Assembly (NCBI GenBank): GCA_021802055.1
Contig: JAKAAY010000018.1
Location: 1 to 34,860, forward strand
Length of the DNA stretch: 34,860 nucleotides
Origin: Thermoplasmata archaeon
GTDB taxonomy: Archaea; Thermoplasmatota; Thermoplasmata; Thermoplasmatales; Thermoplasmataceae
Direction of reading: 5' to 3'
A program made the translations under genes and the position numbers. Shown here one piece after another: positions 29,471 through 34,052 of the stretch. Position 1 is the first letter of the stretch. Every line of letters starts with the position of its first letter. The notes below the pieces were generated by a model that was not told the origin of the DNA, ran no database searches, and worked only from the letters and a program-made list of their open reading frames with translations.

Positions 29471-30073
29471 CTAGGGCTTGATTTGTGTTCTGGCAAAAAT
29501 CATGTGGTAAAACAGAAGGAGAACGATCGATGCAACCATTACAATTGCGGCGCCTGAAACGGGCGTCATGGACAAATAGTGACCTTTGTAGCTCTCAAGA
29601 GCAATCACGGGGGAAAAGAAGTATATTATTCCACTCATGATGAGTCCTGCCCTCAAATGGATTATGGTATAATCTTCAAGCAGAGCCGTTATGGAAAATG
29701 GTATCAGGAAGAGAAAGGAAATTATCATAAAAAAAGATATTGAAGGAGACGACAGGAGAGAACTGAATAGCACGATAGACGAATAGATGAAGATTGAGGC
29801 AACGACCAATGACAGTAAAGATGTGTGCCCAAAATAGACCAGTAAAACAGACTCTGCCCCCAGGAAAGGGACAAAACTAATGAACAGGGCAGAAACCTTT
29901 CCTAGAGACACTGCAGACCAGCTTTCCAGAAGGGGGACCTCGAAAACTGTAATAGACTTATCCCTGACAAAGTGAAGGCCGTTTGAAAGAATGATTAAGG
30001 GGATTACAAGAAACTGAACAACATAGTAGTAACTATCAGAGATTAGGCTGTTGCTGAATATGTATGCTTGAAG
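29471..30073 (-). pseudogene. ABC-2 type permease, interrupted by an insertion sequence (3' part)
   Basis: The open frame runs from the insertion junction (30073) to the stop at 29471 and encodes 200 residues with about five or six hydrophobic segments. The region HFVRDKSITVFEVPLLESWS followed by AVSLGKVSALFISF resembles the coupling helix and third membrane helix of ABC-2 permeases. No ordinary start exists until a GTG at 29911, which would lose 54 codons, including one membrane helix. Joining 32242-32228 to 30073 across the insertion restores a continuous 205-residue protein starting at ATG 32242. The partner ATPase gene ends at 32280. The permease, and hence the transporter, is probably non-functional in this strain. 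Confidence 0.75.
30068..30073 (+). repeat. Target-site duplication, left copy
   Basis: TTGAAG directly adjoins the left terminal inverted repeat and is repeated at 32222-32227 beyond the right end. A 6-bp duplication fits IS1634/IS4-type elements. Confidence 0.75.
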
Positions 30074-30086
30074 CTTACTTTCCGCA
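30074..30086 (+). repeat. Left terminal inverted repeat of the insertion sequence
   Basis: CTTACTTTCCGCA is the exact reverse complement of 32209-32221. Partial similarity continues inward for about twelve bases. Confidence 0.8.
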
Positions 30087-30114
30087 AAAATTTAGAGCAT
30101 TATTCCCGAATTTT

Positions 30115-31809
30115 TCATCCGCCCGGAACAGCATTCCAGTCCTGCTGGTAAGAGTCGGAGGGGGCACCTGCCAGTCTCAACAGATCTTCCTGCCGCTGCG
30201 TAAGTTTCGGCAGGAATTTCTTCACCATCTTTCCATCCGCCTCGATCCAGTTCATCTGTACCATGGAGAAGTCACCCAGAACACGATCAGTTGTGGGTGA
30301 TTCGCATGACCTGAATTCAGGGTATATCCGGATTGATTTCCTCTCCTCTTTTTTCATGCCATTCCTGATCTCACGTTCTATGAGGCTCTCAACCAGTAAT
30401 GCGAGAAAATACACAAACAGGAAACCCTCTATCCTGTCCACGTTCTTCAGCATGACAGGTGCAACCCCGTATACGGATTTGAGCTGCTCATGCCTCTTCT
30501 CCACATGTGGCTGGAACTTGTAGCTGGAAAGAATCTCCTTCAGGGACAGCTTCCTGTCGTTGGTGATCAGGGGAAACATGCCGTCGCATGTTTCGTCAAA
30601 GTCGATATTTTCCTCTTCCGGTTTCCACTCCACATGGAATCGCTTCCTGATCACGGTGCGGTATTCCGTCATGGGCCCGGGTCTTCCTCTGGAACGCTGC
30701 ACCTTCCGTTCCACATCCTCTTCTGTTATCCTGAATCCAACCCATCTCCTCGCGGTCCTGCCGATGGCAGCTTCCGACGCCTTCTTCACGTCATCCATGC
30801 TGTGAAGCCTGCATTTCTTCGACCTGAGCTTTGTCTCCAGCCTTTCAAGATCCATGATGGATTTGCGCATCATGCCATCCCGCACATCCTTGTCATGCCC
30901 TGCCTTCTGTGAACTCCACACCCATACTGTGCGGAAACCACCGGAAGCAGGAACGGGGGACTCAGCCAGCTTCCATACCTGCCCCCTGTCCTCCTTCTTT
31001 CCATGCACGGTCTCCTCCCATACGACAGTATGGGACTGTATCCATTCCTGGAACATGCCATACTCCTTCCAGGTTGCCGGCAGGACGGTGATGAACCTTC
31101 CATTGTTTCCGTCAATGTATTTCAGGTTTGCATCAGAGCAGAGCTTTGAATCTGCAACGTAGAGGAAATCCGATCTTCCGGTAAGCTTCCTGATGGAATC
31201 CCATGTCTCGATGTGCGTCGGTGAATCATTCGTATTGCCGTCAGCAACCCTGTAATGTACGGGGACTGAACCGTCTGCAGTGACTGTGAGGATCCATACA
31301 AGCTGCTTCAGGTCCTTCCTGTGATCCTTGCTGTGGCCGAATGTAAGGTTCACGGTCTTCTTCATCCTCATGTCTTTTCCTGTCGCTGTCCGGTATAAAC
31401 CGCTCAATGCCACGGATGTCGAATCGTTGTGGAACCTCTTCATGGAGAGGTCAAATTCCCTGACAGCGCTGACAACAATCTCTGTCATGAGTGATGACCT
31501 GTCGGCATCGAAAAGCCTTTCAAGGGATCTGCCAATGCGGTCATCATTGATGTGCATGGCATCATCACCGGATGTGCCAAGCAGTGCCTGCGGATATTCC
31601 TCCACCCATTCCCCGATGCCGTACAGGGGTTCCCTTGAGACAAGAACGTTCCGTATCAGGATCCCGATGCACTGCACTGTACCGGCATCATGTGCTGATT
31701 GAAGCCGGCTGCCAATGATCTCTTCCAGGTGCAGCCTCTCCATGAAATGGTTTATGACGGGCAATGGCCCTATGGTTTTTGTATGAAGTTCCAGCCCTTC
31801 AGGATCCAT
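30115..31809 (-). CDS. DDE transposase, IS1634/IS4 type
   Basis: The 564-residue protein begins with the N-terminal domain typical of IS1634 transposases (HTKTIGPLPVINHFMERLHL, DUF4277-like). Candidate catalytic residues are Asp129 in RFHNDSTSVALSG, Asp220 in LYVADSKLCSDANLKYI, and Glu437 in KFQPHVEKRHEQLKSVYG, the K/R-x-E-x-L-K type motif of the IS4 superfamily. The frame has no stops, so the enzyme may be active. It reads from ATG 31809 and diverges from the passenger gene. The start-to-start gap of 49 bp holds a TATA-like sequence and an 18-bp palindrome. Confidence 0.9.
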   Translation of the reverse strand: MDPEGLELHTKTIGPLPVINHFMERLHLEEIIGSRLQSAHDAGTVQCIGILIRNVLVSREPLYGIGEWVEEYPQALLGTSGDDAMHINDDRIGRSLERLFDADRSSLMTEIVVSAVREFDLSMKRFHNDSTSVALSGLYRTATGKDMRMKKTVNLTFGHSKDHRKDLKQLVWILTVTADGSVPVHYRVADGNTNDSPTHIETWDSIRKLTGRSDFLYVADSKLCSDANLKYIDGNNGRFITVLPATWKEYGMFQEWIQSHTVVWEETVHGKKEDRGQVWKLAESPVPASGGFRTVWVWSSQKAGHDKDVRDGMMRKSIMDLERLETKLRSKKCRLHSMDDVKKASEAAIGRTARRWVGFRITEEDVERKVQRSRGRPGPMTEYRTVIRKRFHVEWKPEEENIDFDETCDGMFPLITNDRKLSLKEILSSYKFQPHVEKRHEQLKSVYGVAPVMLKNVDRIEGFLFVYFLALLVESLIEREIRNGMKKEERKSIRIYPEFRSCESPTTDRVLGDFSMVQMNWIEADGKMVKKFLPKLTQRQEDLLRLAGAPSDSYQQDWNAVPGG

Positions 31810-31830
31810 GCAACAGCAATACCGGAGAGC

Positions 31831-31838
31831 TTATTAAT
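31831..31838 (+). promoter_or_regulatory. TATA box of the passenger gene
   Basis: TTATTAAT lies about 25 nt before ATG 31859, consistent with leaderless transcription and supporting that ATG as the start. Confidence 0.45.
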
Positions 31839-31840
31839 GT

Positions 31841-31858
31841 ATGGGCATTACTGCCCAT
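31841..31858 (+). promoter_or_regulatory. Perfect 18-bp palindrome between the two IS genes
   Basis: ATGGGCATTACTGCCCAT has 7-bp perfect arms and a 4-nt centre. It ends on the base before ATG 31859 and lies between that gene's TATA box and start, 32 bases upstream of the transposase ATG. This is the placement of a repressor operator; a role as an RNA hairpin is the alternative. Confidence 0.55.
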
Positions 31859-32161
31859 ATGGAGGCATGCATCCTTGTATTCCATCTGCCGAAGAAGATG
31901 AACAATAGCGATCTGGGAAAGTTCGTGAAGAGATTCTACGGGCAGGAAACAAGCACACGAAATGGAAAATACAGGTACAGGAGGAGGGGATTGCTTGACA
32001 GTATCCCTCACCGGAAGCTGTTGCGTGGTGTCATAATTATCAGGAAGAGTGATCTGGAAGATGTCATGAAATTATTGATCCAGTGGAATGCTGTGGTGGA
32101 TCAAAGAATAATTGAACCAACTGAGGAGGACCTCAAAGTGCTCCAGGAGGTAGGGAAATAG
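31859..32161 (+). CDS. IS passenger protein, unknown function, 100 aa
   Basis: The small basic protein begins MEACILVFHLPKKMNNSDLG and continues with FVKRFYGQETSTRNGKYRYR, then RRGLLDSIPHRKLLRGVIII and DLEDVMKLLIQWNAVVDQRI. The pattern (strand, basic loop, strand, helix) suggests a small alpha/beta or ferredoxin-like fold. I do not recognise a named family. I prefer ATG 31859 over ATG 31841 because the latter falls inside the palindrome and a TATA box sits 25 nt before 31859. It lies wholly inside the terminal repeats, so it moves with the element. A regulator of transposition, acting at the palindrome, is one possibility. Confidence 0.65.
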   Translation: MEACILVFHLPKKMNNSDLGKFVKRFYGQETSTRNGKYRYRRRGLLDSIPHRKLLRGVIIIRKSDLEDVMKLLIQWNAVVDQRIIEPTEEDLKVLQEVGK

Positions 32162-32208
32162 GTATTCAGGAAGCTGATGAATAATTCGAAGATAAGCCTT
32201 TCAACTCA

Positions 32209-32221
32209 TGCGGAAAGTAAG
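32209..32221 (-). repeat. Right terminal inverted repeat of the insertion sequence
   Basis: TGCGGAAAGTAAG on the plus strand is the exact reverse complement of 30074-30086, and the TTGAAG target duplication follows immediately. Confidence 0.8.
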
Positions 32222-32227
32222 TTGAAG
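32222..32227 (+). repeat. Target-site duplication, right copy
   Basis: TTGAAG adjoins the right inverted repeat and matches 30068-30073. Confidence 0.75.
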
Positions 32228-32279: not shown

Positions 32280-33125
32280 TTACTGTACCATCTTATGGAG
32301 CTGAGTAGCTTCGTAGTACGCCCTCCTTATACCTGCCTTTCTGTATCCCATTATATTTCCTTCTGACATCATCTTCTCAAGCTTCTCTTTCTCGGACCTG
32401 ACCAAGAAGATCCTGCCGTATCTAAATAGGACCTCCAGCCCAGGTTCTGAATAATCAGGAAGATAGATTTCGTAGATATTGTCCCTGTACAGTGAATGCA
32501 TGTCACCCATCCAGGTTATTTGCCCTTTACCAAGTATTACGAAGTAATCCCCAACTCCTTCCGCTTCTTCAGGCAAATGAGTGGAGAATATGTAGTCTAG
32601 GTTGGACTCAACCGCCAGATATTTCATCAGGACTGAGGACCTGAAGGCATCCAGTCTGGAAAATGGTTCATCAAGAATCAGCGATCTAGATCCACAACCT
32701 ATTGTATTAAGGATGTTAATGAACTGTTCCTCTCCGCTTGACAGTTCTGAGATCTTTTTTTCCAGAGCCTTGTTCAGTTGCAATATATCAATTAGGGTTT
32801 CAAGGACTTTCCCGCAACCACGCGTCACAGAGAGAAATCTGGTATAATCCATGACCTTGAAGCGGTACGGGTAATGCGGACGCTCGAAGGAAAACGAAAA
32901 GCGGGAAACAAACTCATCCCTGTTTAAATACGGGTCAATACCGTTGACAAGGACGTGGCCATCTGAAGGACGCAGCAGACCACAAAGAAGGGAAAGGAGA
33001 GTTGTCTTGCCCGATCCGTTCTGCCCAAGGATTGCGATTCTCCTGGAACTCACATCCAGGTTAATCTCATTGAATACTTGAACAGCACCAAAACTGAACG
33101 ATAGATTCTTTAGTTCCACCTTCAA
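32280..33125 (-). CDS. ABC transporter ATP-binding protein
   Basis: The 281-residue protein is a single ATPase domain plus a C-terminal extension of about 70 residues. Motifs: GQNGSGKT (34-41, Walker A), ELSSGEEQF (127-135, signature, degenerate from LSGGQ), LILDEP (149-154, Walker B) and STHLPEEAE (His183, switch). The Q-loop glutamine appears replaced by glutamate (SFERPHYP), as in some ABC-2 type exporters. It would energise export through the ABC-2 permease encoded next, which is broken by the insertion sequence. The start lies four bases after the end of the upstream membrane-protein gene. Confidence 0.9.
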   Translation of the reverse strand: MKVELKNLSFSFGAVQVFNEINLDVSSRRIAILGQNGSGKTTLLSLLCGLLRPSDGHVLVNGIDPYLNRDEFVSRFSFSFERPHYPYRFKVMDYTRFLSVTRGCGKVLETLIDILQLNKALEKKISELSSGEEQFINILNTIGCGSRSLILDEPFSRLDAFRSSVLMKYLAVESNLDYIFSTHLPEEAEGVGDYFVILGKGQITWMGDMHSLYRDNIYEIYLPDYSEPGLEVLFRYGRIFLVRSEKEKLEKMMSEGNIMGYRKAGIRRAYYEATQLHKMVQ

Positions 33126-33129
33126 GAAA

Positions 33130-33975
33130 CTACCTCATTTGCCTGAATGCGATTATGGATATTATGAGCCCTGCTCCAAGTAGGACCAAATTAAGCGGCA
33201 AACTTGCCTCAAAGCCGTAATAAATCCAACCGACCCAATCCTGTTGCGGCGCTGAGTTTCCGCTGCCTATGATAATGCTCGCTCCCCGGCTAAAGTCATT
33301 ACCGGTGACCCCGGGATAGATATAGTGAAAAATTGAGCTAAAATTCTGCGAGTATTTCATGTTTGCCAGTGCATACTGCGTCCCGATGTGAACGTACTGC
33401 ACCACGTCAAAGGCAGGCAATCTTAGGTTATGATAAGCCGGATATCCGAGAAAGGGTCGAACTACCAGGTGCGAAATATTATTTGAGGAGATGCTTGCGC
33501 TGAAAAGTGGAGTTTTTACCCCTGTGCCGTTTGGCAACAATAGTGATAGAAAGGGGTTGCTGTCCTGGTTGACCACATCAGTATGATTGTAAACCTCCAA
33601 AATTTGAGAAGCAGAGAACGGCAAGGAGGGTAGATTATTGATGTTGAACCCAATGGACGTTCCTACCAGTTTGTAGACAATGGTCTCCATTGAATACTGG
33701 CCACGACCCTTATCAGTAATGGTTGCCTTGAAACCATAGGAATACGGTTGACCGGTGCTATTGATGAAGAGTCCGCAAGTACCATAGTATGTCAGGGAAG
33801 AACCATCAGAGAATGTATTCTGGTACGGTTCAGTAATGTAACTCCCAAAATAAAAGGTAGTCACTGGTATAAAATTTATGAGAGCCCCAGTGAGAACCAT
33901 GACCACCACTAATAGTGTGGAAATTCTAATGCTCCTTCTCATTCTGGGTCTCTTTTTGCTCGCAGACATGGCCAT
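33130..33975 (-). CDS. Membrane-anchored extracytoplasmic protein of the ABC operon
   Basis: From ATG 33975 the protein has 281 residues; GGTG (33982-33985, minus strand) lies six bases before this ATG, so I prefer it to the GTG at 33984. After a basic start (KKRPRMRRSIR) come a membrane helix (TLLVVVMVLTGALINFIPV), about 210 residues with many Asn, Ser, Thr and Tyr typical of an exterior domain in acidophiles, and a C-terminal helix (SLPLNLVLLGAGLIISIIAF) ending FRQMR. Both termini are thus probably cytosolic with the bulk outside. I recognise no family. It is followed by the ATPase gene, so it is likely an accessory, substrate-handling or immunity-type component of that transporter. Confidence 0.7.
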   Translation of the reverse strand: MAMSASKKRPRMRRSIRISTLLVVVMVLTGALINFIPVTTFYFGSYITEPYQNTFSDGSSLTYYGTCGLFINSTGQPYSYGFKATITDKGRGQYSMETIVYKLVGTSIGFNINNLPSLPFSASQILEVYNHTDVVNQDSNPFLSLLLPNGTGVKTPLFSASISSNNISHLVVRPFLGYPAYHNLRLPAFDVVQYVHIGTQYALANMKYSQNFSSIFHYIYPGVTGNDFSRGASIIIGSGNSAPQQDWVGWIYYGFEASLPLNLVLLGAGLIISIIAFRQMR

Positions 33976-34052
33976 CGTTGACACCGGAAATCTCTATCAT
34001 AGAATTAAAGCGTTATCCGCTCTTCATTCTTGTGAGAGTTTCGAAACGGGGA

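Follow-up and report, generated by a model that had tools for sequence, protein, structure and literature searches.

A family of small proteins accompanies insertion sequences of several families across the archaeal phylum Thermoplasmatota, and operator-like sites with co-varying halves accompany many of its genes. The family was traced from a single element in a window of 34,860 nucleotides, the whole stretch of DNA analysed here (contig JAKAAY010000018.1 of a Thermoplasmata archaeon). In that element the first-pass annotation had noticed a gene for a basic protein, here called the passenger, divergent from the transposase gene and preceded by an 18-bp palindrome. The observation is confirmed and is larger than first noted. 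On comparative sequence evidence, the passenger is probably a transposon-borne self-repressor, the specificity of which would diverge together with its operator.

The window element is a complete IS1634-type insertion sequence of 2148 bp (30074–32221) from a Thermoplasmatota archaeon. Its terminal inverted repeats (left, 30074–30122, plus strand; right, 32173–32221, minus strand) are 49 bases long and 76% complementary, match exactly over the outer 13 bases and enclose the transposase gene, as expected of a family member. The transposase (30115–31809, minus strand; 564 aa, with DUF4277 and DDE_Tnp_1 domains) scores 238.1 bits against the IS1634 model NF033559, which has a cut-off of 100. Copies of the target-site duplication TTGAAG lie at 30068–30073 and 32222–32227. 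This duplication is 6 bp long with four of its six bases A or T, in agreement with IS1634 elements, which are diverse in archaea and generate AT-rich target duplications of 5–6 bp according to an excerpt of PMC2266710. The window element thus resembles its family in its transposase score and its 6-bp duplication, but differs in having a second, divergent gene on board. In the source genome (1.48 Mb in 42 contigs), one full copy only was found of the passenger and one of the transposase; a profile search added part of a passenger at the edge of a contig. Beyond the right end of the element, the frame list places an ABC-transporter-like ATPase and a likely membrane protein on the minus strand (32280–33984).

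The passenger gene, encoding the putative self-repressor of 100 residues, occupies 31859–32161 on the plus strand. The surrounding frame is open from 31841 to 32161 and could encode 106 residues from 31841. This longer version was rejected: homologues begin at the equivalent of the ATG at 31859, which makes the 100-residue version correct, as the first-pass annotation had it. Its placement of the gene inside the inverted repeats was equally accurate. That annotation would have given up its reading had the frame been lost from homologous elements; the frame is conserved in them. Comparison of the passenger with three relatives gave dN values of 0.06–0.11 and dS values of 0.87–1.06 (NG86), and the transposase gave a dN of about 0.16 and a dS of 1.1–1.2 with two relatives by the same method. 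The passenger is shown to be a real, conserved protein under purifying selection. With a 20-member profile, relatives were detected in 42 of the 117 genomes searched within the order, and in 38 of 389 sampled from the phylum. In a wider contig scan, which reached close relatives only and hardly covered other phyla, the named records carrying such relatives are Thermoplasmatota or Thermoplasmatales archaea.

The protein family appears to be without a name in the libraries searched. Pfam, NCBIfam, PHROGs, PADLOC and PDB sequence searches returned nothing above their cut-offs. The best Pfam match was DUF3788 (E 0.0048), with six of the 20 profile members at E 1 or below. An HTH_17 match in two of 20 members reached E 0.03 and 15 bits against a cut-off of 27. 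No description of the family was found in the open-licence literature, a scope that lies outside ISfinder and does not imply absence from print.

The start codons of the two window genes, at 31859 (plus strand) and 31809 (minus strand), are separated by a short intergenic region. A TATA-like sequence read by inspection, CTTATTAATG (31830–31839), is centred between them, about 25 bp from each, and possibly forms one TATA box common to two leaderless transcripts. The palindrome ATGGGCATTACTGCCCAT follows at 31841–31858. The first-pass annotation had located it between the TATA box and the passenger start, and this is indeed its position, just upstream of the ATG. With its flanking T and A it extends one base into the start codon and becomes a 20-bp site (31840–31859) with two matching 8-base arms TATGGGCA around TTAC, a centre that is not itself symmetric; the resulting operator-like inverted repeat reads TATGGGCA-TTAC-TGCCCATA. 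With up to three mismatches allowed, 0.07 chance matches are expected in the 34.9-kb window. In the 60 bases upstream of the window gene, 9 of 200 dinucleotide shuffles gave an equally good palindrome. The single copy is thus modest evidence, and the case rests on comparison between loci.

Such comparison reveals the same order upstream of the passenger ATG in many loci: TATA box, palindrome, ATG. The divergent start codons are 49–51 bp apart in the four IS1634 loci with an aligned first codon and 50–52 bp apart in most loci of an IS5-like group termed IS5A, in both cases with a TATA-like sequence between them. In the 60 bases upstream of each gene, no more than 10 of 200 shuffles reached the palindrome at 34 of 59 loci, and no more than two of 200 at 14 of 59. 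A more specific test required a 20–21 bp site that has a pair of 8-base arms and begins between −24 and −18 relative to the passenger ATG. At least seven of eight symmetric pairs were present at 31 of 60 loci versus five of 360 control windows placed within these genes, and all eight at 16 loci versus none of the control windows; the other 29 loci have no site of at least seven symmetric pairs at this fixed place. Near-copies occur among the 60 loci (L088 and L091 share a genome), and counts are therefore also given by passenger cluster at 75% identity: 21 of 39 clusters have at least seven symmetric pairs and 10 have eight.

The architecture conserved near −20 is TRTG-NNNN-(4-5)-NNNN-CAYA, the usual half-site being TRTG followed by four variable bases. 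The centre (TTAC or CTAC) is asymmetric and often kept, a constraint that simple binding by a dimer would not call for. Covariation was examined in 15 sites, one per cluster, picked by their outer TRTG...CRYA anchors only. Symmetry holds for 53 of their 60 inner pairs, and 12 distinct inner tetramers are represented. When the right arms were re-dealt 10 000 times, symmetric inner pairs averaged 25.9 of 60 and never exceeded 41; this procedure ignores relatedness, near-identical passengers having been merged beforehand. The first-pass annotation had looked to conservation of the palindrome across copies as a check on its proposal. Conservation extends to the architecture but not to the sequence, which varies widely while the gene is kept. 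This variation is symmetric, as a co-evolving dimer site predicts, and a repressor circuit is supported on that account. Other placements occur. IS66 elements have a longer site with TACTGAA arms that precedes both genes of an operon. A second IS5-like group, IS5B, has its palindrome beyond the TATA box, upstream and towards the transposase (about −57 to −32); it is clear in some loci only.

Loci without a passenger provided a further control. Thirty-nine of 72 such loci were chosen by hand, most of the others being partial transposases or having short flanks; six distant IS5 loci were also left out. Control windows ran from 120 bases ahead of the open-frame start to 60 bases beyond it (at most 180 bases, compared with at most 158 in passenger-bearing loci); length and placement differ between the two sets. 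The comparison was not blind, the TRTG anchor having been spotted in passenger-bearing loci beforehand. Any site with at least seven symmetric pairs was present at 41 of 60 bearing and 23 of 39 passenger-less loci. The TRTG-anchored site was found at 24 of 60 bearing loci versus none of the 39 (Fisher 1.2e-6), or by cluster at 13 of 39 bearing clusters (Fisher 7e-5). Positions between −24 and −19 account for 23 of these 24 sites; the exception, at L076, is at −79.

These results bear on the proposal that a transposase or host protein binds the palindrome while the passenger does something else. Palindromes lie close to or over the start codon of many passenger-less transposases, IS1634 and IS5 elements among them, and the frequency of any palindrome at the 39 control loci is in keeping with such binding. 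A palindrome near a transposase promoter alone is thus no mark of a passenger. The proposal is nonetheless improbable in view of the anchored site, which is confined to the bearing loci in this comparison, holds its position with respect to the passenger ATG whether the neighbouring transposase is IS1634 or IS5A, and is present at L017 and L094, an orphan or contig-edge pair of loci that have no matched transposase. Promoter-proximal symmetric sites are commonplace in these insertion sequences; it is the TRTG-anchored site at a fixed place that accompanies the passenger.

Several passenger-less elements have features of their own. In the IS1634 loci L205–L210, a palindrome ATGGTGG-TATWYM-CCACCAT covers the transposase start codon, and another copy of one arm lies about 60–80 bases upstream of that start; self-binding by the transposase is one possible explanation for the palindrome. 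A long inverted repeat, CCCCTGTATAATRAAATACAGGGG, is situated just upstream of the transposase in the IS5 loci L276–L278. The IS1634 element L158 (genome G026), one of the 39 controls, has a different divergent gene upstream of its transposase, encoding 137 residues with a cysteine-rich middle, and a fully symmetric palindrome, ATACTAATGTAATCATACATTAGTAT, across the junction between gene and transposase. The gene may be another passenger, unrelated to the first but wired alike.

The range of partner transposases extends well beyond IS1634. The 117 passenger matches were reduced to 84 distinct passengers, and a partner was defined as a match within 1.2 kb to any of six representative transposases, taken from the passenger loci themselves and assigned family names from NCBIfam; IS5A and IS5B are our own labels. 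Damaged or very distant members (e.g. L014, L093, L097, L114, L116, L118 and L119) are included in the counts. Sixty-five of the 84 passengers are near a transposase: 30 IS5A, 20 IS5B, eight IS1634 and seven IS66. IS5A transposases match IS5 models below cut-off only, and among the IS5B members tested against these models L023 alone scores above cut-off, barely. The transposase is upstream and divergent for 58 of the 65 passengers. Six others precede an IS66 transposase gene that is read in the same direction; at L029 the passenger and transposase genes overlap. The last, L076, is counted under IS66 despite adjoining an ISH3-like transposase that begins divergently beside it. The remaining 19 passengers have no transposase match, and some of them end at contig edges. 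Four intact ones (L010, L017, L065 and L078) lie among ordinary genes without a matched transposase; those of L017 and L078 retain a palindrome before the start. The first-pass annotation had treated a gene beside the transposase as unusual for this type of element. The gene is present in the window element as described, but it is not peculiar to it and recurs phylum-wide across several families of insertion sequence.

The passenger moves with its element. Genome G070 contains four copies of one 1.49-kb unit, 99.2–99.9% identical, each with both genes; two are flanked by 9-bp duplications (read by eye). Copies with and without the gene, both of which the first-pass annotation had proposed to look for, occur in the same order. 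Nearly every IS5A or IS5B locus that holds the N-terminus of the transposase also has a passenger. A passenger match is missing from 72 of 103 transposase loci, and passenger-less transposases in the order include matches to IS1634 models in 66 of 117 genomes and to IS66 models in 29. On a passenger tree with many weak forks (57 proteins, 101 columns), the transposase labels need 15 changes, where seven is the minimum possible. The IS1634 label accounts for four of these, three of them forced by well-supported branches. The simplest reading of the tree is that a passenger cassette has been exchanged between transposase families. At L121 (G052:C29), two passengers form a tandem pair on the same strand, and the second has a palindrome of its own. 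The IS5A label of this second passenger depends only on an IS5A fragment 414 bp away, from which it is separated by the first passenger; this label is uncertain, and the well-supported pairing of the second passenger with L020 (IS1634) is therefore weak evidence for exchange.

A role as a transposition accessory factor, either in target capture or as a transpososome helper, would account for some of these observations. The palindrome would then serve the factor's autoregulation or assembly, and transposase control would be secondary. Consistent with such a role are the near-constant presence of the passenger with the transposase N-terminus in IS5A and IS5B, its slower change compared with the transposase (dN as given above), and the IS66 arrangement, in which it overlaps or adjoins the transposase gene. 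We regard it as unlikely, since IS1634, IS5-like and IS66 transposases would need one common helper, passenger-less IS1634 and IS66 elements are numerous in the same order, and four intact passengers have no transposase nearby. The symmetric site, moreover, is at the promoter and not at the element ends.

Structure prediction provides limited guidance. A model built from four close sequences (mean pLDDT 66, a weak value) has alternating strands and helices. The closest solved folds are ferredoxin-like, the best being a designed ferredoxin fold (VIA-align Z 6.4, rmsd 2.5 over 69 residues), a Z value within the range reached by unrelated models. Foldseek gave no match at E 0.001, and with either program no fold rose above unrelated rows for this weak model. 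The model gives no support for a helix–turn–helix, and no function is drawn from it at this pLDDT. A ferredoxin-like topology is possible. Dimeric DNA-binding domains of ferredoxin-like fold, such as that of papillomavirus E2, recognize palindromes with a short spacer. The passenger may resemble this type in topology and has a short-spacer palindrome, but it has no significant sequence or structure match to it, and the model is too weak for a claim.

The first-pass annotation had also left room for a toxin or a host-interaction role, and for this no support was found. Many antitoxins and anti-CRISPR-associated regulators are small proteins with autoregulated promoters, and the passenger is likewise small, with a promoter of autoregulatory appearance. 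A toxin, antitoxin or counter-defence cargo is nevertheless very improbable. The element holds no partner gene, PADLOC gave no match for the window protein (the best, E 0.015, was in one of 20 members), and no relatives were present in the viral contigs, plasmids or phages searched.

The favoured reading, self-repression, suggests the following course of events. (i) A newly arrived copy would jump until passenger protein accumulates. (ii) A passenger dimer would then bind the symmetric site and block its own promoter; the site, which directly follows the TATA box in the passenger's direction, would be placed to obstruct polymerase there. (iii) Bound protein would also hamper the shared or neighbouring transposase promoter. 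The site overlaps the position that TFB would occupy for the opposite promoter. With the site before the gene pair in IS66 and nearer the transposase in IS5B, bound protein could curb the transposase in each arrangement. (iv) Gene and promoter would travel as a cassette between transposase families. (v) The inner four bases of the half-site would change in step with the protein, yielding element-specific specificity.

A precedent for such wiring is Tn3, in which, as an excerpt of PMC7157771 describes, TnpR binds res sites between or upstream of tnpR and tnpA and represses both genes. Going by that excerpt, the two systems share a transposon-borne protein whose gene is read either away from the transposase gene or in the same direction, with promoters and sites together. 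TnpR, however, is a serine recombinase acting on three-part res sites, whereas the passenger matches no recombinase and has one short palindrome; family searches detected no serine recombinase domain in the window protein or the 20 members. The likeness would thus be one of wiring, not of membership, with repression by the passenger the presumed counterpart.

A wider proposal is put forward tentatively, as possible more than probable. The passenger and its leaderless two-way promoter/operator would form an exchangeable cassette of unrelated insertion sequence families, the protein representing a new DNA-binding class other than helix–turn–helix. Protein and operator would diversify in step, giving rise to immunity groups of the sort that phage repressors define; passengers without a transposase would be repressors held by the host against related elements.

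The usual view of an insertion sequence is that of an element with one gene. Here a single protein family is found with four or more lineages of transposase, spread over an archaeal phylum. If the passenger represses, it would provide archaeal insertion sequences with a general switch for self-limitation. The family would then offer a natural set of a dozen protein–operator pairs in which specificity is directly readable, and a system for testing how cross-repression is avoided or shared among mobile elements.
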